DNA of 24,987 nt from Syncephalis plumigaleata. Taxonomy: Eukaryota > Zoopagomycota > Zoopagomycetes > Zoopagales > Piptocephalidaceae. The stretch covers positions 1 through 24,987 of the forward strand of contig JAIXMF010000192.1 of NCBI GenBank assembly GCA_025201365.1, read 5' to 3'. A program made the position numbers and the translations under genes. The notes beneath the pieces were generated by a model. The model saw only the letters and a list, made by a program, of their open reading frames with translations. It was not told the origin of the DNA and searched no databases. This document shows, piece by piece, positions 5,149-24,987 of the stretch. Position 1 is the stretch's first letter; each line of letters begins with the position of its first letter.

Positions 5149-5293
5149 GAGAGAGAATAGTGTAGATTTATTTTAACTAATAATACATAAATAAATAAAT
5201 CATACGCAAGTGTGGAAAATTAAAAAACAGTTTTAGCAAACTATTTGTGCTTTGGCTGGTACATTGATGTAGACTGGATTGTCCGTTACTACA

Positions 5294-6478
5294 TTATTCA
5301 GAGAAATCCATGAGGCCAGCTTCGGTCAAGGCTTCTAGATCATCCATCTCTTCGTTCCAATCATGAGGAGGATCTTCGGCCGGCTTCGTCGCTGGTTGCT
5401 CTTCGGCTGCGCCTTCCCACAAAGCCGCGAACATGTTCTTGGCTGTGACAGAGCGAGTTATAGGTTTGTCTCCACTTACTGACTTTGCAGTCAGCTTCTT
5501 TTTAGTATTATCTTCAGCCGGCTTCGTCTGGGACGGCGGCTTATTTTTATCTGACGACCGATGCGTCGATGAAGATGAATCTGACTTGGCGCAGTTGCTC
5601 TTAGGCTGCTGGGCAGCTTGAGAATGGGTATCAATAGTCGAAACCGCATGCATGGGTGCTTCTGGAGCAGATGGAGATTCAGTAGTTGCATCGAGTTGCT
5701 CGTTTGAACTTGAATTTACTTGACGCCGACGTTTGCGGCTTCGTGGATTGGGGTTTGATTTGCCTTGTGCCTTCAAACGATCTTTCTTGCGCCGTAAAGC
5801 GCTACAGCCACCGACTGAGTGACCCGTTGCTTTGCAGTAAACGCAGAGGGGAGGCGCATTGCGCCAGCGAAGTGTAGCCACCTGTCCAAGAATGATGGGG
5901 CAGCGTTCGATTGTTTTCGCGACCGATGGCTCGGCCGATATGTCTAAGTAAACAGCAGCGGAAGGCTCCAGCCAGTTCGTCGAGCCAGCGTAATGCAGAC
6001 GAATGTCCGCAATGGTGCCATATTGGCGGAAATGCTGCTTGAGAGCCTTGGTGGTTCCGTCCGGATCTGTTACTGCAAGGTCAGATACCGTGATACACAG
6101 TACATGAGCGTTTGGGGCGTAAGCGCGATTTATAGGAATCGTGAAACTGCCATATGTGAAGCCATCTAACAGAACCTTAGTAAGGTCCTCGTTAGGCTTG
6201 AAACCTAGTTGGAACTTGGAATTCAACATACGGCGGACCGAGCGGACTCGTTCGCCATATTTCCCGTGTAGTGCTCTCAAGAATTCGTCAGGAAGTCCTG
6301 GAACACCAGTAAAGTTAAATTCAATGGCATTTGGAAGGAAGGTACGCGGCAGCGGGTGGCCGCTTTCAGGGTCACACTCAGGAGTACCTAAAAGAGACTG
6401 TTTATGATCGACTCCCAGTGCACTCCTAGAGATCCGCTTCATTGCTTCTGCGAAGGACAAGCCTTCGACGAGCGGCAT
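5294..6478 (-). CDS. LINE ORF1/gag-like protein: RRM-like domain plus CCHC zinc knuckle
   Basis: A 394-residue single-exon protein. I start it at ATG 6478 (MPLVEGLSFAEAM); the frame stays open upstream to 6703, but that part is translated simple repeat and crosses the target-site duplication. Residues about 124-205 look like an RRM fold (HVLCITVSDL, then LKQHFRQYGTIADIRLHY). Residues 212-225 form a CCHC zinc knuckle (CVYCKATGHSVGGC, spacing C-X2-C-X4-H-X4-C). A basic patch (RSRKRRRQ) follows, then a Ser/Pro/Lys-rich disordered tail and an acidic C-terminus. This is the architecture of LINE ORF1 nucleic-acid chaperones, which coat element RNA. The frame is intact, so it may still be expressed or may have been co-opted; no ORF2 is present. 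Confidence 0.8.
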   Translation of the reverse strand: MPLVEGLSFAEAMKRISRSALGVDHKQSLLGTPECDPESGHPLPRTFLPNAIEFNFTGVPGLPDEFLRALHGKYGERVRSVRRMLNSKFQLGFKPNEDLTKVLLDGFTYGSFTIPINRAYAPNAHVLCITVSDLAVTDPDGTTKALKQHFRQYGTIADIRLHYAGSTNWLEPSAAVYLDISAEPSVAKTIERCPIILGQVATLRWRNAPPLCVYCKATGHSVGGCSALRRKKDRLKAQGKSNPNPRSRKRRRQVNSSSNEQLDATTESPSAPEAPMHAVSTIDTHSQAAQQPKSNCAKSDSSSSTHRSSDKNKPPSQTKPAEDNTKKKLTAKSVSGDKPITRSVTAKNMFAALWEGAAEEQPATKPAEDPPHDWNEEMDDLEALTEAGLMDFSE

Positions 6479-6531
6479 TACCACAGATCTTATATTTGGT
6501 GTGTGGAGTGAGTGAAAAGAAAAAAGTGAGG

Positions 6532-6548
6532 TAAACGATATACTAAGA
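6532..6548. repeat. Target-site duplication, 5' copy
   Basis: Identical over 17 bp to 5132-5148. It marks the 5' boundary of the minus-strand element, about 54 bp upstream of the ORF start. Confidence 0.8.
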
Positions 6549-7022
6549 AGTAGTTGGCTAAAATGGTTGTATACACGACAGGAAGATCGGTCAGTAAGTA
6601 GGACTGATTTAGCCGATACTTCAATTGCAAAACATACGCACGCACGCACGCACGCACGCATAGCTATTTCCGCTTCTATCCATCTTTCTATCCATCTGTC
6701 CATCTATCTTTCTGTTTTCGACATCATGCATCGCAAAGGTCGTGGGACTGTCGTACGAACAACTCTTGAGCGGAACAAATGACCGTCGTTTCGTTCGTTC
6801 CTTTGCGGTGCGGGACATGTAGCATTTGACACGACCCGCATTCCTCTTCAAATGTACTGCTGTAACATTTGATGAAATGCTACGCGTTTTGCATCATTAT
6901 CAAGAAAGCGGAATTAGATGAACAAAAATAGTGACTGATGATGGTTTATGGACTCGAGTGTAAATCGGAAACCGACCAACTACCAGAGATGTTCCAATAT
7001 TAAACAATGCAGTGTCATTTCC
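6549..7022. repeat. Intergenic region with tetranucleotide microsatellites
   Basis: Contains an (ACGC)n tract at about 6636-6660, followed by TATC/CATC-type tetranucleotide repeats at about 6676-6715 and a TTCG run near 6787-6802. The open frames over it are translated repeats. No gene seen. Confidence 0.6.
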
Positions 7023-14175: not shown

Positions 14176-14539
14176 TGCAATGTTTATAAACGCGCTTTTT
14201 TTCTTGCTTTCTTGAATCATTTCCATATCTTATTATCAATATATTGCTAGCATAGCGTCATTCTCTTTATTTGCAACTATACAATCAACATTGCAAAAGA
14301 AAACCCAATGGAGTATACTTGCTACTAAGCATTTAATAATAATGACAACAAATGCCATATAAATTATACTAAAAAGCATACATTTATTAATGATATTCCT
14401 CAGTTTATACGAGTAAATTGACATAGAATGAAAAGGCTATCGATAACAACAAATACGATCTACTTGCATCTCTCATCTTTTTTATTATTATTATCAACTA
14501 TTGTAATAAGCTATGCATGTATATATAGATATCGTATAA
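14176..14539. other. Convergent intergenic region between SPC1 and PAF1
   Basis: AT-rich 364-bp spacer holding both 3' UTRs; TTATTATTATTATC near 14480-14494. No gene seen. Confidence 0.5.
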
Positions 14540-16176
14540 TTAGTTTTTCTTATTCATTTCTACAACCATAGCTTGCGGTCTATTCCATTCACGATCATTA
14601 CCCTAGTTAAGTATGAAAATGATAGATCGTAACGATTGCACTATTGTCAGCAATGTTAATGCTCGATTAACGTCTTTAGTCACTTACCAAACGACGACGT
14701 CTTCGTAGAACAAGTTTTGTAGGTAGTTGTGCATAGCCTGCATATTCATTTGGTCGTATGAACAGCATAACATGACGACCACCTTCTGTGGGAGTAGCCT
14801 CGTAGCTGTAATCTCGAGACAAATTATAGTCGAGTGATATCTAACGATACATGTCGATTGCATCATTAGTACATTTCGCTAACTGTCGTAGTAACTACCA
14901 CATATGCATTAACTTACCTTGTCTAGGGTGGCGTCATGTTCATCTTCAATACGCTCTACCGCGTCATCCGTAGGTAGGAAACATGCCAGGAACTTTTCTC
15001 CCGTTTCTCCATTCTCTTCTGGTTTGAATAGAGCATGTTTTGCTTTTCGCATTATCATCGAATCATTGGCCAAGTTCTATTCAACGGGAAAGGGAGGAAT
15101 AAAGGAATATTAACTCACTACTACTGCTACTACCATTCAATTCACCTACCTCTTCTGTATTGACCGTTGCACCCGGTGGCTGTTCTAATACACAGTGCGT
15201 GTATGCCTCATCGGTTGCCTCCTCTGCACCTTGCATACGATGACCGATATATGCCGGTAGTAGTGGAATAGTGCTAACCGCTTTCAAATGCGGTTTACGC
15301 GGATGCCTCAATGTGGCAACATCGATGTGGGCTGTCTTCTCGAATGATGCCTCCACAATGGCTAGTTGTGCCTCACGCGAACAGTCCAAGGCTTGCGCAT
15401 TCCCACCAGCATGTTGCTCGCCCCTAATCGTTCAACGGTCGCTTCTTTGTAAATAAATCACGGTATGCCATCGGATGAATAGTCTCACCTTGTTTGCGAT
15501 GGACTTTGGTGTAGTCCACCACCACGACCCGTCTCCAGTGATATATACTCAGTTCGACGTAGCCATGGTACGTTTAACTTTCCTCGCGGTGAGTTATTAT
15601 TTAATAGACCTGTACTTGATTTACGTCCATCGAGATAGCGAACACCACCACCACCACCACCGATACTCATTGGTGTCACTAATAATGCCTGATCTTTTGG
15701 ATCAAGTGAGGCACCCGCTGGCTGTGGACGTTCCATGCCTATTACCGCGTTATTGCATCAGTTAATGTCATATATATAAATAAATATACTACTAGTAGTA
15801 GCATGTTGATATTACCTGCTGCCACGTCGAATAATCCCAGTTCGGGTGTCTCCACCGACATACCAAGATCCCAGTTGGTCAACAGCGGATACGTGGCCTT
15901 TTGTACAAGTGAGGTATGTCGGTAATTACTGAAACGATCCACCGTCGACGGCAGCTTAATAAGCTTCGGTGGAAACGGTAGCGGAGGCAGCTGTCCCGCG
16001 TATCGTGGACGACATAAGAAATCGTTGTGCTGTTGTGTTTGTGCTTTGGCACGAGATCGTCCTTCACTCGCGTGAGTACCGCTAGAACGGCCATCTCTAT
16101 TGGTACTAAGATGTTTGTTGTCGTTGTTTAAGTATGTTTATGATAATAATAATACGATAGCTTACCTTGTCGACAT
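14540..16176 (-). CDS. PAF1: RNA polymerase II-associated factor 1 (PAF1 complex subunit)
   Basis: Seven minus-strand exons (16176-16166, 16105-15816, 15738-15489, 15423-15150, 15076-14918, 14840-14688, 14602-14540), all in phase, 399 residues. Paf1 is the scaffold of the PAF1 elongation complex that promotes H2B ubiquitination and transcription through chromatin. Diagnostic blocks are GQLPPLPFPPKLIKLPSTVD with NYRHTSLVQKATYPLLTNWD, LDPKDQALL, NVPWLRRTEYIS, IDVATLRHPRKPHLKAVSTI, and a C-terminal ISLDYNLSRDYSYE ... LPTKLVLRRRR. The first coding exon is only 11 nt (ATG TCG ACA AG). A six-glycine run sits at about residues 129-134. The Asp/Glu-rich C-terminal tail typical of many orthologues is reduced to a short end. 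Confidence 0.93.
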
Positions 16177-16463
16177 TGTGGAATCAATAGGGTGGCAAAA
16201 GAATAAGAGTGTGGTGTTATGGTTTACAGGAAATGTGGTTTGTTGATTGTTATCCATTGATGTGATGATCAAGTAATATGGTGGATTGCCAATGTCAACA
16301 TATCTCACACACTTTCATTTTATACATGCATGCCATACAATTTATTTATTAGCTATCTGTATCAAATGCTATAGTTGTATAATAGCTTCATGTTAACAAT
16401 AGTGCTATGCATTATCATTCAAGACTCCACTATTTATATCATCAAGCAATGTGTTTATTTCTA

Positions 16464-16793
16464 TTAGAATGGATTGATACCGGAGACATCGTTCATCGTG
16501 ACGCCAAATTGACCTGATAGAAGAGGATCGGATAGTTGACGCTGACGCTTAATTGGTGCTCGTCCATTAGCGCCAGTTGTTAAAGGAACCTTTGGTGAAG
16601 TGGCGGTAGTGACGGTATGGGATGAAATAGGAATTGTAGTTACTTTAGCCAAGTGATGCGGTAGTTTGGCCATTCTACCACCCTCCTCTAAGGTCTTGAC
16701 TAGGATACCGGGAATGACTGGAGCAGCATCGGCATTATTCACGATGGCGAAAAGTAGCGTAACGGCAATAGTTAGATATTGGAATGAAACCAT
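16464..16793 (-). CDS. Small secreted precursor protein with a dibasic (Kex2-type) site
   Basis: A 109-residue intronless protein starting at ATG 16793; an upstream in-frame codon at 16832 is not ATG. Residues 1-23 form a strong signal peptide (SFQYLTIAVTLLFAIV, cleavage after NNADA). The middle is Thr/Pro/Ser-rich without cysteine. Lys82-Arg83 forms a KEX2/furin-type site, after which a 26-residue C-terminal segment begins QRQLSDPLLSGQ and ends in VSGINPF. I infer a pre-pro-peptide that may release this C-terminal peptide (N-terminal Gln could cyclise). No known family. It lies on the same side of PAF1 as the microexon peptide gene 2.1 kb away, and its leader ends in a similar way (NNADAAPV against SSADATPV). 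Confidence 0.7.
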   Translation of the reverse strand: MVSFQYLTIAVTLLFAIVNNADAAPVIPGILVKTLEEGGRMAKLPHHLAKVTTIPISSHTVTTATSPKVPLTTGANGRAPIKRQRQLSDPLLSGQFGVTMNDVSGINPF

Positions 16794-17982
16794 AATGTAG
16801 AATCTTGAGATACTGAAATGCAATCGTTGCAAAAAGTCAAATCACGTATAAATAAGATTGCACTGTAGCAGTTTATGCTGTATGAGAAGAATGGCAAAGA
16901 TATAATTGTAGCTGTAGTTGTAATGATTGGCAAGAGGAATAAGACGACATGTAGCGCTCGTTTATATACAATCTCAAAGATGACACTCTTTTCTTTTTGT
17001 TTGCACTGTTCGTAATACTGCCACGAGGTATCATGACAATGCTAATAGTAAGTACCATGTCGTATTTTTCTACATCATTCATGCTTAACAGTCATGCAAT
17101 AATGCAGTAGTGTAGTAATGCGAAGCTTTGATGAATGGTAATCATTCCAAGAAAGGAATGAAAGAAAGATGCCTTGAATCTGAAACGAAAACACGATGCT
17201 ATCGCTGTTGTCGCTCTGTATCGTTGTAGTTTCAATACGACTCATTTCCTATTCTAGTTGATGTAGTGTATATATCAAGTAATAAATCCACGTATTTGAA
17301 CCTATTTTGAGCGGTGAATTGCTACAATCAAGGAGTAAATGAACATGCAAAATCTCATGCAAAACAGCCACACTTTGTCATTAACATTATTACTAAGTTG
17401 GCATTACAAACGAAAAATAAGCTTCTTTCTTCTTTTCTTTCTGCATTGCTGCTATAATCTCACTAATAATAACAATAAACAATATACTTGGCACAAATCT
17501 ACGAATTGCTAACAATCCATTGTAATCGTATTAGGAATGAAACATTATGCTTCGTCAGTTGACGATTACAAATGCGACAATCGTGCATTCACAACAACAA
17601 CAACGGTAATGATGATGATATGCCTATCCTTCTAGAATTCCTTACCACCACCACCACGCGAATACTAATCTTTCTCCTTCTACTTTCACTACTTTAACTG
17701 TAGTTATACCACCATGTGTACACCATTATGGTACTCATTTACCAATGGCTCAATACCATAATTGGACATGGCTATAATTGGATGGATCAATGGCATATTT
17801 CTGACTACTCAACGGAATGATTGTTACTTCTTTTTCGTTTTCGTCTTATTGCTAATTAGAATATCGGCATTAATCGTACTAATATCGTTACTATCATTAC
17901 TATTTTGTTGTAATCTATTGGTTAACCAAAGATTAGACTGTCGTTTCCCTTTCGCTCGAAATACATTCGCTTCTATATAGAA
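16794..17982. other. Gene-poor region among the small secreted-peptide genes
   Basis: About 1.2 kb with no convincing conserved gene. It includes CCACCACCACCACG near 17645-17658, CAACAACAACAACG near 17592-17605, and a hydrophobic plus-strand frame at 17768-17980 (Leu/Ile/Phe-rich, 70 codons) that could be a small membrane protein but has no supporting motif. A 33-residue two-exon model from ATG 17538 with a 30-nt intron is possible but unsupported. Confidence 0.4.
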
Positions 17983-18129
17983 TTAGTAATTCACGATAAC
18001 GTTGTCGTAACAATAACGAAACCCATTCATGCTGTGACACATGTTCACCTTGGAGCTATCATTTTCTTTTGCATCAGCCGAACCTATCAATGGTATGCGC
18101 ATTGAGAAGCATACCAAGAAGAAAAGCAT
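17983..18129 (-). CDS. Possible small secreted two-cysteine peptide, relative of the microexon peptide
   Basis: A 48-codon frame from ATG 18129. MLFFLVCFSMRIPLIGSADA looks like a weak signal peptide (one Arg in the hydrophobic part) and is followed by a short part with Cys31 and Cys40, reading NGFRYCYDNVIVNY at its end. The SADA leader end and the basic-Cys-Tyr-Asp signature recall the 42-residue peptide at 18901-19523 (SADA, then RRRCYDD). It may be a decayed or live relative, or a coincidence in so short a frame. Confidence 0.3.
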   Translation of the reverse strand: MLFFLVCFSMRIPLIGSADAKENDSSKVNMCHSMNGFRYCYDNVIVNY

Positions 18130-18478
18130 TCTACTATCATATAGCAAGATGCTATGGATGGAATGGTAACCCATTTAGCATAAGCATGAGCGTATCATTC
18201 TTTTTACTAAATAAAATAATACCAAGGATACATCATCGAGCAGTTTCTCCTCTTGTGACACGACATCATTCAAGTTCAATGATCGGTGACGAGGCAATGC
18301 ATACGCAACAGAATAGCCTTGGCTCCATTACGTCTAATTAACTATGAACGATACAAGTTGTAACTTGTTATCGCTCTGTGGGTTCCATCGTTAGTACACA
18401 CTACGAATTACACTTGTGACCTCTCATTAAGCGATTCGACCTTTATTCTAATGTGTATGTCGTATCCACAGATCGTTA
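18130..18478. other. Spacer, no gene seen
   Basis: Contains only short open frames on both strands without recognisable features. Confidence 0.4.
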
Positions 18479-18724
18479 TTACCTACTTAGCATTACCTGT
18501 ATAACACACAGACAGCGGTATACGTGCATATCAATGCTATTCTCGTCAATGACACGGACATGCACTGGATTCCCGATGAATGAGCGTGCGATTTTATGGG
18601 ACGTGGCATAGCGATTGATGTCCAGGAAATATGGAAATTCTAGAACCAGTTTTCCATACATATCATGTGGACGACTTGTACCATCTCGGATGCATGACAG
18701 GCACCGAGTTTCTTTACATGACAT
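18479..18724 (-). CDS. Hypothetical protein, 81 residues
   Basis: Uninterrupted frame from ATG 18724, beginning MSCKETRCLSCIRDGTSR with an N-terminal Cys cluster, followed by mixed hydrophilic sequence (LVLEFPYFLDINRYATSHK, then VHVRVIDENSIDMHVYRC). It has no signal peptide and no family I recognise. It is divergent from the microexon gene, with about 176 bp between start codons. The last nine residues may be read-through into an intron. It could be a chance frame. Confidence 0.3.
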   Translation of the reverse strand: MSCKETRCLSCIRDGTSRPHDMYGKLVLEFPYFLDINRYATSHKIARSFIGNPVHVRVIDENSIDMHVYRCLCVIQVMLSR

Positions 18725-18900
18725 GGCATATGACCCTCAATTACCGTGGAAATCCTTTAAATACATCGCAATAGTGAAATGAGCCTGATACAGGAACATC
18801 TATCGCTTCCTATTCCAAACTACTATCACCATTCTTGCTTCAACAAACAATTAATAATACTTATCATTAGCGTTCTAGTAACAGCAATATCATCGGCATC

Positions 18901-19523
18901 ATGAAATTTTCTGTGGTTATCATTGTCGCTTTTGTCATGGCTATGGCCATCATCATGTCAAGTGCCGATGCTACTCCCGTGGCAGCTACTAGCAGTATGT
19001 ACTAGTATTGTATTATGTAACTTTTCTACTAATGATATACTCTCGATATTATCATTCGAATCCATTTGCATTTAGGTTCTTGTAAGTCTAAAACTAAATG
19101 CAATAGCTAGCTGCTAATAACTTATCGTACATGTATCATACGTGATAATACCATAAATAGGCAGTAAGTTGCTACCATACTAGTAATAGTATCAATGTTA
19201 ATCGATTCACGTATAACTAACTAATACGTTTGCAGCTCGTAAGTATACCTTCTCATAGACATATCCGCTTCGTACTAAATAAACTGAATTGCCCTTTCAT
19301 TCAACCATTCTAATCGATAGGACGTAAGTATAATTATCGAATGTCATAGGAGGCATGCTAATCATACGATATCTACTTCCTGTTATGAATAATTCCATTA
19401 AATAGGACGTAAGTTATAGGCAAGAAATGCAAATTATATCCAACTAACGATTCAATAATGATTCATTAATTGATGATGACGACAACGATGATAATGTCAT
19501 TTACAGGTTGTTACGACGACTAA
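18901..19523 (+). CDS. Secreted peptide encoded by a microexon array (exons of 94, 6, 3, 3, 3, 3 and 17 coding nt)
   Basis: Exons: 18901-18994, 19076-19081 (GTTCTT), 19161-19163 (GCA), 19236-19238 (CTC), 19321-19323 (GAC), 19406-19408 (GAC) and 19507-19523. Each microexon sits between an AG acceptor and GTAAGT; the first intron begins GTATGT. The six introns are 81, 79, 72, 82, 82 and 98 nt, each with a CTAAT or CTAAC branch-point-like word. All junctions are phase 1, so every microexon completes one codon and starts the next. The product is 42 residues: exon 1 encodes a signal peptide (MKFSVVIIVAFVMAMAII, cleavage expected after SSADA at residue 24), and the predicted mature peptide is TPVAATSSSCTRRRCYDD, with Cys34 and Cys39 able to form a small basic disulfide loop. 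The last exon also carries the 3' UTR. I know no family; the architecture recalls schistosome micro-exon genes, but with smaller exons. Splicing is inferred, not observed. Confidence 0.85.
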
Positions 19524-19837
19524 GTCTCACTATGCAATAGATGACTGGTGTAGCTGCACAAACTAGGCTAGAATCTTACTGAAATACATTCAAGCTAAGG
19601 AAATAGGAATGCGCTACTTGTATCAAGAAAGGCATAAATGCACCGCTGGTATCGGATCGTCTATGCTTATTATCCTAACTATCTATCTACATTATTCATT
19701 CCAGTATATTTTCATCGATGGCTAGTTGCCAATGTCATTTACTATTGGCTTGAATCGATCATATACACTAATCCCAAATAAATATGTTACTTTTCTTTCT
19801 TTTACGAAGGGTATACAATCATCATTATTACTACTAT
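19524..19837. other. Convergent 3' region
   Basis: 314 bp between the microexon gene and pyridoxal kinase stops; presumably both 3' UTRs (AATAAA at about 19778-19783). No further AG-NNN-GTAAGT microexon pattern is seen here. Confidence 0.5.
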
Positions 19838-21180
19838 TTACTCGTCAAATGGATCAATAGATAGATGGCTTGTGGATACAGTTTCTATCATATCTCGACA
19901 TTCGATAAGGCGTAACTCGCATGCTCTGGCAATGGCGGAATTACCACGTTTTGGCGCATCTGCCGGTATATCCTGCTGATACGATAGTGTATGGTTGAGG
20001 ATACGCGTCATACTACCTAGTACAATTCGACAGGCTTGAGCAAGCGGTGACGATGAAGAAGAAGACGTGTCACTAAGTTCAGTAGCATGCTTCGTAGTGA
20101 TCTCCTCTAGGCGTGCCAATAAAAGAGAAGCAAATAAATCGCCCGTTCCCGTGAAACTACCATTAAGTTTAGGGAAACCGATTTTAAATCGATTTACTTG
20201 CTCGCTACCCGATACTCGTTCACTACCGAACAAATACATCCTACCCTCGGGTGTATCGTCTAGTTCCGCACTGCTAATAACCACGTAACGCGGACCAATA
20301 TCGTGCAACTCATCAAGAGCTGCCCTAATATCGGCAGTAGTTTTCAATTTACGATCTAGTAACAATCTATTTTATAGTAGTTATTGTTATTATTATTACT
20401 CATTGATAATCGCATACTTACTCGACTTCGAATTGATTAGGCGTAATCACATCGGCTACAGGTAGTAGGACATTACGATAAATGGGAATTACCTCGGTAG
20501 ACACGTAGATAATACCTGCATCACCCATCACTGGATCGCATACTAGATCAAGAATGATATATACATATATATTGAAGCATAAGTAATTGCTTCGTTGCTT
20601 GATCATTCACTACATTGTCTATCCTTACCATAGACTAGTGATGGATTCTTGGCACGTAATTCACATACTATATTCGCAATAAGTTTTAGTGAATCTGCCG
20701 AACCATTATATCCTATATATACGCACGTACATTTTATTGATTAGCATATAGCATCCATCTATACATGATGATATCAATCTATCTATCTTTATTTACCTGT
20801 TAGTACGTGCGAATAGTTAAAGAGCTCGTTCTCCTTGAGACCACGAATGAGTTCACCAACATCGTCGGCAGATAAACGCTGTCCTGCAATTAGCTTGTAT
20901 CCTATACAAGAGAAAAGCACGTTAATACACGCTATCCTATCTTAACGACCAGTGTTCTTTTCCTTTCCCGTTTACTCTACCTGAATGATTCGAGAACTGA
21001 ACGGTATTCAACGGATCAACGTCGAAACCAAGTAGTTGCAAGGGAAATGTCGCACATTTATTGCCTATGCAGTATTATGTTAATACACTAGTATCTACAT
21101 AAAAGTATCTACTTACCGACATAACCTGACACGACGTGTGATTGAATAGATAGCACGCGTTTACCAGTAAAGGAATGCAT
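19838..21180 (-). CDS. Pyridoxal kinase
   Basis: Six exons (21180-21117, 21064-20981, 20901-20797, 20712-20629, 20542-20422, 20366-19838), in phase, 328 residues. Phosphorylates pyridoxal, pyridoxine and pyridoxamine to the vitamin B6 coenzyme forms (yeast BUD16/human PDXK family, ribokinase fold). The N-terminus [20 protein letters not shown] is diagnostic, followed by [64 protein letters not shown], and the anion-hole/catalytic motif [16 protein letters not shown] with the conserved Asp. A five-Ser run lies shortly after it. Start at ATG 21180 fits the family start exactly. Exon-intron boundaries are all GTAAGT/GTAGAG/GTAAAT to TATAG-type. Confidence 0.95.
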
Positions 21181-21346
21181 TGCTTGTTTGCTTGTTACTA
21201 CAACTTGACTACTAACTAATGAACAAAGGAATAAACCACACACTTACACACAAAATGTAATTGTAAACTTTGTATTTATCAATTTGTTTTCATTTAGCAT
21301 CTCTCATTAAGCAGACAAACAAACAAACAACAATGAAATATGACAT

Positions 21347-22951
21347 TTAAGCACCAGGTGATACACCCTCAACTGCTGGTGTCGCCGTCTCCTTTAGATT
21401 GTCTTGCCATACGCGTGCTTGATGTGGCTCGCCAAAGAACACGACTAGCACGGTGATATCATCACGGAAATGACGAGTTTTCGGTGCGGGTATACTCAAT
21501 AACTGCGCTGTCTTATGCGTGTCTAATCCACCGAATGCATTGCGTACTAGACCCGTGGCCGCATTCTTCTCTTCGTAGGACCATTTATCGGTAAGACGAG
21601 CCTTCTCGTCGACGTAACCCGCGACTACCTCGATAATCTCGTCATTCGACATGTCATCGTATAATCCATCAGTGGCAATCACCATAAATCGATCGTTCGC
21701 TTCAATCTTATGCGTAGTAACAACAGGACGTGCCGTAACGTATGGCGGTGTCTTGTACACGGAGGACGGCATACGAAGTTGCGGGAAATAATCATTGAAT
21801 ATCTGTCGTTGTATATCTACTGACCATTTGTAGCGTGCATCACCAAATGCTCTTAATGGTTCTATCGGCATTATTACAATAAATGTTAACAACTATAATT
21901 ATAACATACTATTATTGTTATGCTACTTACGTAATCCACCCAAGACACGATTACGTGCTAGAACAGCATCCTCTTCACCGGGATGCTCGCTCATGATACG
22001 CTTTCGCTCCGAGGGATTATGCGCCGTTTGATCCTCGCTCAACACTTTCGCTTGCCATTGTCCCTGTTGACCTTGTCCGATAATGGCGCGACTATCGCCC
22101 GTTAACGCGACAGTCACCTCACGATCCTGCGTATTTACATAGGTCACCAGCACGCATGAGCCATTGAGAGCACGCTCCAACCAGGTGGACGTCTCCTCCA
22201 ATTCTTTATCATCCGTGATCTCACCGGGTCGTTTCATACCAAGTGCTTGCAATCGTTTCACGCTGCCTTGCACGATCTCGTCGTCGATCGACACGAACGC
22301 CTCCTCCATTGCTTTTCCTTTAGTGGATGCATCCGCATCTTTCGGTAGTCGTGCGAATGCCTCGGCTATTCTTGTTGGCAATGCTTTAGATACCCATTTG
22401 GCACAAGCTGTACCGGAATGTCCGTCAAATACACCGAATAGATAGCCGGTACCATCCGATAACGCGTGTTGACAGTAGTAATCCTCGCATGGATTATTCG
22501 ATGGCAGCTGAGCCCGTTCGATCTTTTGTATCAATGGATGAAATGGTAGATCGACACTACGCTCACGTGCACGCAAGCGACGTGCCACCTCTTCACTTGT
22601 CGGTAGAACATATGGCCAAGTTTTAGATTTGTCTTTAGATGACGAAGAGGAAGAAGAAGAGGAAGAGGAAGAGGAGGATTTCGACGTGGTATAATGACGA
22701 CGCCATAGATAATAAGTGCCACCAGCTACTACGGCAGTACCACATACGCCAGCCACTGCTCGTCGTGTACTGTTGCTAGTAGTGGGACGTTCTCCGGTCG
22801 AGCTGTAATAACGCGTTTGTGCATTCATAGTCCGACTAGTTGCGCTAGTTAGCGATGTGCAATGACGCGTGACAACTGGACGCGCTACCCGACCGGTAGA
22901 CCAACGTGCCACGTCAGTTATCGTTCGTTTAAGAATAGGCATCGGTAGCAT
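21347..22951 (-). CDS. Mitochondrial PP2C-type protein phosphatase (PTC5/PDP-like)
   Basis: Two exons (22951-21931, 21861-21347), 511 residues, start ATG 22951. The N-terminus is Arg/Ser/Thr-rich without acidic residues over the first 40 or so (mitochondrial targeting), then one membrane segment (about 66-82, AVAGVCGTAVVAGGTYYLW) and a poly-Ser linker before the catalytic domain. Metal-binding motifs: NPCEDYYCQH, LFGVFDGHSGTACAKWV (about 171-187), VALTGDSRAIIG, GLQPLRAFGDARYKW across the exon junction, VIATDGLYDDMSNDEI and RDDITVLVVFF. This is the layout of the PP2C branch that dephosphorylates pyruvate dehydrogenase E1 alpha in mitochondria (family knowledge; substrate inferred). The PDXK gene follows 166 bp downstream on the same strand. 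Confidence 0.93.
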
Positions 22952-23117
22952 AGTGATGCGTGTTATTGTCGTCGTTGTAGCAGTAGTAGCAGTGAAATAG
23001 CTTGGATGGATACTTCTTGTATATTAAAAGATATAAGAGAGAGAGAGAGAGCAATGAATCGACAAGTATTACTCTATTTTTTCCACTTTTTCTCTTATAT
23101 TAAACATACGTGCAAGC
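22952..23117. promoter_or_regulatory. Divergent promoter with (GA)n tract
   Basis: 166 bp separate the start codons of the PP2C gene and the membrane-protein gene, so it must serve both. It holds a GAGAGAGAGAGAG tract at about 23038-23050 and a TTTTTTCCACTTTTTCTC pyrimidine tract next to the plus-strand gene. Confidence 0.5.
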
Positions 23118-23724
23118 ATGTCAGATTCTACAAAACATACACCGTTGAATGAACGTGACAATAAGCCACGAACCTTGTTTGCCACGTATATAGATCGATG
23201 GTCGCAATCTGCCTTACCAGTTACTGCAATGTCCGTCATGTGTATGTTGTATTCTTTGTATTGTCTATTATTATTCATATTCATATTCATATTCATATTA
23301 AAGTATTGTTATACTAGGTGGCGTGGCAATACCATTCTCGGGAATGGCACGTTTGGCACTGCCCTCTCATATGCAACTACTAGGGTTTACAAGTATATTT
23401 GGAATGGCAGCGTAAGTCGATAATACTCAACAGTATCGCTGTAGCATTTATTAACTATCTCGCTAGTTATGCCAATCATAAAAAGGATATTGATAATGCA
23501 GCAGGAATTGCTACAGGTAAGCACGTTAATCGAATTGATACTTGTAGATTGACTAGCTAATATCGTTTACATCATGCATTTATCTAGCATGGTCACTTGT
23601 ATATTTATTTGTTAATGGTCGTGCTGCTTTACGTACATTACGACCTGCACCACTACTACTATTGGCAGCAGCAACCGGTAATGCTACCATTTACGGGAAA
23701 CGCGCTATTAATTCATGGCTATAA
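23118..23724 (+). CDS. Small multi-pass membrane protein of unknown function
   Basis: Model: 23118-23241, 23318-23411, 23434-23516 and 23588-23724, 145 residues, in phase. A polar N-terminus (SDSTKHTPLNERDNKPRTLF) is followed by hydrophobic segments at about 35-55 and 60-85 (QLLGFTSIFGMAAIAVAFIN), a polar loop (ANHKKDIDNAAG), a further segment (TAWSLVYLFVNG), and RTLRPAPLLLLAAATGNATI near the C-terminus. I do not recognise the family; a mitochondrial or ER membrane protein would fit. The intron between exons 2 and 3 (23412-23433) is only 22 nt, far below the others; the alternative acceptor at 23443 shifts the frame to a stop. Intron 1 contains (TTCATA)n. Confidence 0.65.
23274..23298 (+). 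repeat. (TTCATA)n hexanucleotide repeat in an intron
   Basis: Four units of TTCATA lie inside intron 1 of the membrane-protein gene; on the opposite strand they create a spurious Met-Asn repeat frame. Confidence 0.75.
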
Positions 23725-23884
23725 TGAATGTGCATTGTGTATTACAGCATACATCAATGAAGATGGATACACATTATGTCATAAACAATTAATGAGATTA
23801 TTACTATTACTATTACTATTACTGTATATATACTGATAGACTATTGAGAAAGTGACGTGAATGCAATGTAGAATGATGATCTTC

Positions 23885-24987
23885 TTATACACGTATAATC
23901 TCCACTTTGGTACGTTCGGCAAATTTATGCGTTAGTCGACGACTTGCCTCGGTGGTGTAGAATAGTTCCGTACTAAATGGATGCACGGTCAATCGCGTAT
24001 ACGTGCCACCCATTTGATTGAGGGCAAGTCTGCCTGGATTTAAACAGAGTGATTCCGTTCCAATGGCTAAGCAATAGAATGAATAGTAAAGGAGAGGAGA
24101 GTAATTAGTATCAATGTACATACAAGTGTCGACTATCATAGAATGACTTACCTTGCAGAAATAGTTTAGTTTCGATGGTAATACCAGTAAATCCGGTTGT
24201 TGATGCAATGCCAATGCAGACATACGTTGCTGATCTACCGATTCACCAAGAGCAGGTGGATATAGCGGATAGAAACTGAATGAATCGAATTAGTCATCAT
24301 TGTTAAATGACAAAAGTACACTTCGTGATAATACGACACTTACGTGCGTTGTTCCAATAGATGACTCGCTAGTCGAGCTAATCTATCAGTGTTGCTGGGT
24401 GTACGGGCAATCTCCTCCTGACTAATATGCATTAGGATATCGGTACTGGTCAGGGCGAGTTGTAGCTCGTTAATCTGGATTTGTACCGGATTCGGCAAGC
24501 ATAGTATGTCATTTGATGTGGTACGCGATGCAGATTTACGCTTCAATAACAGTCATTATGATTATGATTACTACTATGCTTATTATATTATGATTATGAC
24601 TATTATTTACCTTGGATAGTAGACTGGTTAGATCCATGGGTGCTTGTGGCAATGACATATAATCAGACATTAGATCATTGGTGGAGGGCATCAATGCAAT
24701 CCTCGTTGAATGGCATCGAGGTAGCATGTCTAGAATTGGTTCGAGTATATGATCGTAAAACAATTCCTCGGGTAGTTTATCAGTTTGTCCACGCGACATC
24801 ATAGGATGTTGTCGATCGAGGAATGGACCCATCTATTATAATAGGACATATATATATAAATTATAATAGTGCCTATGATTATGATGGCAACATTACTAGA
24901 ATGAGTAATCCGGTGTTCATCTTCAATCGCTTTTAGTAGAGCGGTCAATGGTTCGAATAGTAATTATCATCGAGCGTGTATGGACCA
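23885..24987 (-). CDS. POLA2: DNA polymerase alpha subunit B (C-terminal part; 5' end outside window)
   Basis: The non-catalytic B subunit (yeast Pol12) of the polymerase alpha-primase complex that starts replication. Minus-strand exons visible: about 24987-24895 (partial), 24832-24611, 24540-24344, 24275-24152 and 24066-23885. Family blocks are GPYTLDDN at the right edge, FEPLTALLKAIEDEH, MGPFLDRQHPM, PEELFYDHILEPIL, LALTSTDILMHISQEEIAR, SDRFSR-like TDRLARLASHLLEQRT, FYPLYPP, PDLLVLPSKLNYF, and CLNPGRLALNQMGGTYTRL, ending VEIIRV as in other Pol12 proteins. Two faults: a one-base frame break near 24957-24962 between GPYTLDDN and FEPL, where a TT run is one T short of a good reading, and a one-base misfit at the 24152/24066 junction (intron of 85 nt). 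The exon before MGPFLD must use a GTTGCC donor to stay in frame. The rest of the gene is undoubted. Confidence 0.88.

Follow-up and report, generated by a model that had tools for sequence, protein, structure and literature searches.

Predicted structure of the microexon gene in the window

The stretch of DNA analyzed here, referred to as the window, comprises 24,987 nucleotides of Syncephalis plumigaleata (contig JAIXMF010000192.1 of assembly GCA_025201365.1, positions 1 to 24,987), and is contig C104 of an assembly of 32.6 Mb in 383 contigs. An initial annotation, made from the letters alone, had described at positions 18901-19523 of its forward strand a secreted-peptide gene built from five consecutive microexons of 3-6 nt, and this gene, referred to as the window gene, is the subject of this work together with its relatives in the same genome. 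Direct reading found all of the microexon units at the positions claimed, and the exons of the window gene are 94, 6, 3, 3, 3, 3, and 17 nt long. Exon 1 (18901-18994, 94 nt; MKFSVVIIVAFVMAMAIIMSSADATPVAATS), the prepro exon, has a hydrophobic start that was judged by eye to be a signal peptide, and ends in phase 1 at a GTATGT donor; its last residues are VAATS, without a dibasic RR, and an RRR appears later in the spliced peptide. Intron 1 (18995-19075, 81 nt), which was identified by both direct reading and the gene model, runs from GTATGT to TTTAG and is followed, all on the forward strand, by the microexons GTTCTT (6 nt, 19076-19081), GCA (3 nt, 19161-19163), CTC (3 nt, 19236-19238), GAC (3 nt, 19321-19323), and GAC again (3 nt, 19406-19408), each of which directly adjoins an upstream AG and a downstream GTAAGT and is the same on the other haplotype described below. 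The last coding exon (19507-19523, 17 nt), preceded by ACAG, reads GTTGTTACGACGACTAA with TAA at its end. On the same strand, a likely poly(A) signal region, AATAAATATGT, was read directly at 19777-19787, and this word also occurs near the 3' end in several relatives in an alignment of nine of them.

When joined, the microexons contribute 18 bases, GTTCTTGCACTCGACGAC, between 18994 and 19507, and the joined frame consists of 42 codons in phase 1 throughout, in agreement with the 42-residue precursor that had been proposed. The introns are 81, 79, 72, 82, 82, and 98 nt long, which bears out the proposed spacing of 72-98 nt. The further claim that each intron has a CTAAY word stood in that all introns have one, but the sole CTAAY of intron 4 (19239-19320) is close to its 3' end, and the better-placed word there is CTAAA.

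That such a run is very unlikely by chance had also been claimed, and this was supported by simulation. The pattern AG-N(3 or 6)-GTAAGT is found in the window nine times on the forward strand and twice on the reverse strand, and five of the nine forward matches start within 331 nt at the window gene, four of them within a span of less than 330 nt. In contrast, 300 first-order Markov simulations of the forward strand gave a mean of 0.74 matches, and never more than two in a span of less than 330 nt.

A search of the genome with the window DNA (blastn) identified positions 14526-24413, on the forward strand, as 97.9% identical to C1:2251500-2261400. This identity, over the 9.9 kb compared, makes it most likely that the window contig represents the second haplotype, with C1 as the other. 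Between the two haplotypes, none of the 129 exonic, 36 donor, and 12 acceptor sites of the window gene differ, whereas 17 of its 446 other intron sites do (Fisher p = 0.018 for exons versus introns).

Arrays of probable single-codon exons across the genome

The locus is best read as a secreted-peptide gene with consecutive microexons of 3-6 nt. The initial annotation had proposed looking for AG-NNN-GTAAGT arrays behind signal-peptide exons, and this, carried out within the same genome, succeeded on a large scale. Pairs of AG-NNN-GTAAGT units 55-85 nt apart number 1,834 genome-wide (999 forward and 835 reverse), compared with 16 (14 forward and 2 reverse) for the reversed-pattern control, in counts that cover the two haplotypes together and accept no donor other than the strict GTAAGT. 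The same pattern with a 4-nt exon gave 4 pairs, versus 3 in its control. Both the arrays and their specificity for the 3-nt size are directly supported by these counts, and a chance origin of the arrays was rejected on the basis of the 4-nt control and the Markov simulation of the window. Furthermore, a DNA search with one array matched at least 103 places (the best 40 of 126 candidates were scored), and the prepro exon has at least 150 matches in the genome at E values up to 1 (the best 150 of 166 candidates).

For closer analysis, 21 array loci (L001-L011 and L019-L028) were taken non-randomly from the pattern list for C1 and from the DNA search, and 18 gene models were built from 17 loci, leaving out L003 (no model), L006 (exon 1 of deviating length), L004, the window gene, and its allele L009. 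In these models, exon 1 is always 94 or 97 nt long, ends in RR in 17 of the 18, and has the donor GTATGT in 15 and GTACGT in 3. The prepro exons begin with MKFS (or MRLL) and have A.P near the end. Downstream of exon 1 lie a small number of exons, each of 3, 6, 9, or 12 nt, and next a 5-nt or 2-nt exon shifts the phase from 1 to 0; beyond it, single-codon exons continue as far as the stop. Considering internal exons only, 635 of 705 are 3 nt long, and the longest run of 3-nt internal exons per model ranges from 73 (L019) down to 10 (L005); the initial annotation had understated the size that arrays can reach. L021 and L022 are 69-exon genes with the same overall structure, in which 3- and 6-nt exons are mixed.

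The longest run is in phase 0, with one codon per exon, in 16 of the 18 models. The phase 1 originally assigned is kept for the window gene, which lacks a 5-nt or 2-nt phase-shifting exon and for that reason stays in phase 1, but it does not extend to the family. The predicted proteins of the 18 models are 46-117 residues long, and eight of them (both L020 genes, L021, L022, and L025-L028) spell C-Xn-CC-Xn-C; these amount to five distinct genes when paired copies are counted once, and the other ten models do not have the pattern. The L001 array also has cysteine codons in C-CC-C order, although it is modelled off phase. For three of the spelled peptides, a Pfam scan gave nothing above the cut-off.

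Some loci depart from this structure. Altered prepro exons were seen in L003 and L006, and these two loci, together with L030, L033, and L034, have coding parts that are altered, shortened, or off-frame; all five are apparently decaying copies. L004 (C1:1409500-1419400, reverse strand) has a long single-codon array, in front of which no MKFS prepro exon was found, and is possibly a second type of array gene. A GC-AG intron is present within the L001 array (5236-5244, TGG followed by GCAAGT), and similar junctions of TGG with GC occur in the models of L023 and L027.

Triplets of the arrays as probable codons

Among the unit pairs of the whole genome, TAA, TAG, and TGA never occur as the first triplet, while TAC and TAT together occur 41 times. 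Likewise, there is no stop among the 505 strict-array triplets of the 21 sampled loci, where 8.2 would be expected from the column composition. The absence of stops is thus a direct observation. In the other two joined phases of the sampled arrays, 1 and 36 of 419 codons are stops, and phase 1 for the whole family was rejected because of the 36. Of the 505 strict-array triplets, 199 start with G and 388 end with T or C. Judged by these counts, the triplets are codons, and the possibility that they are meaningless was rejected because stops are avoided in both the pair counts and the sampled arrays.

Conservation and divergence between paired copies

Four pairs of array genes were compared site by site. 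Donor sites were conserved relative to introns in three of the four: 3 of 258 donor sites versus 276 of 3069 intron sites differ between L023 and L024 (p = 3e-7), with none of 86 acceptor sites differing; 10 of 252 versus 341 of 3015 differ between L027 and L028 (p = 8e-5); and 1 of 408 versus 138 of 4749 differ between L021 and L022 (p = 2e-4). The numbers of exons are equal in two pairs (69/69 and 50/50) and close in the other two (44/45 and 43/41).

One pair has diversified in its triplets. Between L023 and L024, the triplets differ more than the introns do (29 of 120 positions, or 24%, versus 9%; p = 1e-6); of the codon changes, 13 are nonsynonymous and 2 synonymous. In addition, 10 of the 40 codons carry changes at two or three of their bases, compared with an expectation of approximately 1, and whole codons seem to have been replaced. 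This pattern suggests that the triplets of this pair are under diversifying pressure.

Intronless copies

Eight further matches of the prepro exon, chosen non-randomly, were inspected: six picked for long open frames (L029-L034) are intronless, and two picked for the common 44-codon frame (L035 and L036) have arrays. The similarity of L029 to the array genes starts approximately 125 nt upstream of its ATG, near the expected start of the mRNA, and stops after AATAAA. L029 has no counterpart of the TATA box found in most array genes, which is TATAAAT in 12 of 16 aligned rows and TACAAAT in one, and which is also missing from L002 and from the window gene and its allele. Behind exon 1 of L029, the six linker microexons of L011 are directly joined, matching at 20 of 21 nt, and a difference in length alters the frame. 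L029 is flanked by an 11-nt direct repeat, AGTGTACGCGT, ahead of whose 3' copy there is no run of A that would represent a poly(A) tail. It has several of the features by which a retrocopy is recognized, in being intronless, beginning near the mRNA start, and carrying direct repeats at both ends, and we take it as a probable retrocopy of a spliced mRNA. While an intronless copy with joined microexons is a direct observation, it would be an indirect, though physical, sign that microexons are joined.

L031, L032, and L033 are intronless yet have kept the TATA box. These could be paralogues that arose at the DNA level, for which both loss and gain of introns are possible.

Other features of the window

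The window also encodes a lumazine synthase, the best matches of which in the PDB are probably fungal entries; the intron signals are fungal in style as well. An open reading frame (ORF) at 16464-16832 on the reverse strand, approximately 2 kb from the microexon gene, has a signal peptide-like start (MVSFQYLTIAVTLLFAIVNNADA...), and a 469-codon ORF at 5294-6703, also on the reverse strand, has a CCHC-like stretch (CVYCKATGHSVGGC) and resembles a retroelement gag by eye. Neither ORF has a Pfam match at an E value of 0.01, and scans of the window against Rfam and for tRNA genes gave no matches.

Interpretation of the arrays

Taken together, it is very probable that the window gene belongs to a large fungal family of secreted-peptide genes, in which the mature peptide is encoded mostly by single-codon exons spliced by intron definition. 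In these genes, the 94- or 97-nt exon 1 would provide a signal peptide and a short propeptide, usually with a dibasic site at the end, and the mature peptide would be assembled mostly from 3-nt exons, separated by short introns whose donors are strong (GTAAGT) and whose branch words read TACTAAY. Triplets of the main family are in phase 0, with one residue per exon, and the introns, of approximately 80 nt, are homologous to one another. The spliceosome may recognize each short, strong intron by itself and join codon to codon into a normal mRNA; intron definition is probable because a 3-nt exon has no space for exon signals. The repeat unit consists of a complete intron and one codon, and duplication of a unit would therefore add one residue with both frame and splicing intact. 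We infer that the arrays are spliced in the cell, that the peptides are secreted, that the propeptide is cleaved, and that the arrays have grown by unit duplication. More tentatively, and with less confidence than doubt, the arrays might be a system for writing peptides, in which single residues are inserted, deleted, or replaced through unequal exchange between introns and exon skipping shortens the product in frame, so that a large set of secreted, often cysteine-rich peptides is diversified in evolution and also, from one gene, by alternative splicing. Unequal exchange would harm neither the frame nor splicing, and skipping would keep the frame, because every codon, with its homologous intron, would be a phase 0 cassette of its own.

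Several observations weigh against this interpretation or parts of it. Codon usage did not discriminate, since the array triplets correlate with long ORFs (from L012-L016, 50 kb of C2) at r = 0.43, and intron triplets at r = 0.77; and gene models avoid stops by construction, so that stop avoidance had to be tested by pattern counts alone. Two models, those of L001 and L008, are doubtful because they fall in phase 2, and the models of L024, L025, and L028 have doubtful ends, in addition to the unmodelled L003 and the unusual exon 1 length of L006. Growth by local duplication was not borne out, as the identity of adjacent introns (0.696) is close to that between introns of different arrays (0.670). 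Donor conservation did not reach significance in L025/L026 (0 of 294 donor sites versus 28 of 3486 intron sites, p = 0.16), in which 2 of 98 acceptor sites differ. The triplet rate is not significantly different from that of introns, in either direction, in L027/L028 (7 of 117 versus 328 of 2967), L021/L022 (4 of 147 versus 138 of 4749), or L025/L026 (0 of 141 versus 28 of 3486). The frame of L029 differs from that of the array genes, and its match to them covers exon 1, the linker exons, and the untranslated parts only; the AGTGTACGCGT word has a single occurrence in each of L001, L003, and L006 as well, and the direct repeat of L029 is therefore weaker evidence than it appears. A tblastn search of the genome with two of the spelled mature peptides found no intronless copies. 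Finally, the window gene itself has just five microexons, and its introns, although similar in length, are 0.54-0.60 identical to those of the family, compared with 0.50-0.52 after shuffling.

Other explanations of the arrays differ considerably in how well they accommodate these results. Many or all of the microexons could be skipped in most mRNAs, with a set of peptides produced from one template, and such alternative splicing is possible but on the whole unlikely. The size of the 635 modelled 3-nt exons would make it frame-neutral, and in a study of schistosomes the symmetric microexons are taken as the result of pressure for frame-preserving alternative splicing (PMC4671649), but the Cys-CysCys-Cys framework of eight models suggests that the full-length product matters, and exon numbers are equal or close between paired copies. 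That the arrays are an untranslated minisatellite of introns, whose tandem units retain splice-like words around meaningless triplets, is highly improbable. Within an array, the introns are 0.696 identical when adjacent and 0.645 when more than eight units apart, which, together with the 0.670 between arrays and the 0.515 after shuffling, is what a repeat family would give. However, a minisatellite accounts neither for the absence of stops among first triplets genome-wide and the strict 3-nt size, nor for donors that, in three of the four pairs, are kept as the introns diverge, the prepro exon ahead of all 18 models, and the joined linker exons in L029. Near-neighbor introns reach approximately 0.8 identity in L005, L007, and L008, and recent local duplication of units appears evident, from these comparisons, in those three loci only. 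Slightly less credible again is recursive or nested splicing, in which AG-NNN-GT would serve as ratchet points through which a single long intron is removed in steps, with the triplets discarded. An AG adjoining a GT is the form of a ratchet point, but triplets that are discarded need neither avoid stops nor maintain a cysteine framework, and the linker triplets were retained in L029.

The place of the window gene within the family is a separate matter. Its exon 1 has the length, the MKFS start, the A.P near the end, and the GTATGT donor of the family, but it lacks both the RR found at the end of exon 1 in 17 of 18 relatives and the homologous introns of approximately 80 nt between codons. It is rather improbable that the window gene lies outside the family and only resembles it, being either a secreted-peptide gene unrelated to the others or a decayed relic. 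Such a view would explain why its introns are not clearly of the repeat family, why its exon 1 is merely 16-35% identical over 31 residues to 12 other aligned prepro exons, and why it has no terminal RR and is in phase 1 rather than phase 0. It is less easily reconciled with the family-like length, start, and donor type of exon 1 and the microexon architecture, with haplotypes that are identical in exons while the introns differ, or with the AATAAATATGT word common to several relatives. We regard the window gene as a small, divergent member of the secreted-peptide family that differs in its intron sequences and stays in phase 1. With introns little above the shuffled level, it either is an old member or arrived separately at the same form.

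If transcripts confirm the structure, the arrays would represent an extreme of intron-exon organization, with introns at almost every codon of the mature part in numerous genes of a single genome. They would then provide a natural system for studying how the spliceosome defines 3-nt exons dozens of times consecutively, as well as the multiplication of introns and a possible acceleration of secreted-peptide evolution by codon-sized exons. Gene finders, which seek longer coding runs, have probably missed peptides of this kind.

Comparison with known systems

Families of related introns, known as introner elements, occur in fungi. Composite introns of fungi have been described as stwintrons (PMC8469720). 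Unlike the introns of the arrays, which are separated by one codon, those of both kinds interrupt normal exons or one another. Exons of extremely small size are also known individually: isolated 1-nt exons in APC11 of Arabidopsis and CYP621A of Fusarium (PMC4674806 and PMC12940212) and plant microexons of 15 nt or less (PMC8831610) have been described. Spliceosomes can thus manage exons of 1-15 nt, and single exons of 1-3 nt have precedents, but these examples are reported as lone tiny exons in ordinary genes rather than arrays that encode whole peptides. Among the matches listed in open-licence PubMed Central, as represented by titles and the starts of abstracts, there was no report of arrays of single-codon exons, which is weak evidence of novelty.

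The bicycle genes of aphids, including megacycle, encode putative secreted effectors that evolve rapidly and have many small exons of uniform phase, with approximately 17 exons on average and internal exons nearly all in phase 2 (PMC9168663). The array exons differ in being single codons, in phase 0 in 16 of 18 models and in phase 1 in the window gene, the two phase 2 models (L001 and L008) being doubtful. Along with the bicycle genes, the closest kind is that of the microexon genes (MEGs) of schistosomes, which are described as encoding small secreted proteins with the signal peptide on a long 5' exon and central microexons of less than 36 bp, mostly divisible by three (26 of 33 are symmetric in MEGs 26-32; PMC4671649). 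The same arrangement is seen here: both the window gene and all 18 models have the putative signal peptide on an exon 1 of 94 or 97 nt, with symmetric microexons in the center, of 6, 3, 3, 3, and 3 nt in the window gene and predominantly 3 nt in its relatives. The differences are that most exons of the fungal arrays are a single codon, with as many as 73 in succession, and that the introns are homologous; the comparison is one of architecture. The arrays can be regarded as a form of microexon gene at the far edge of that kind.
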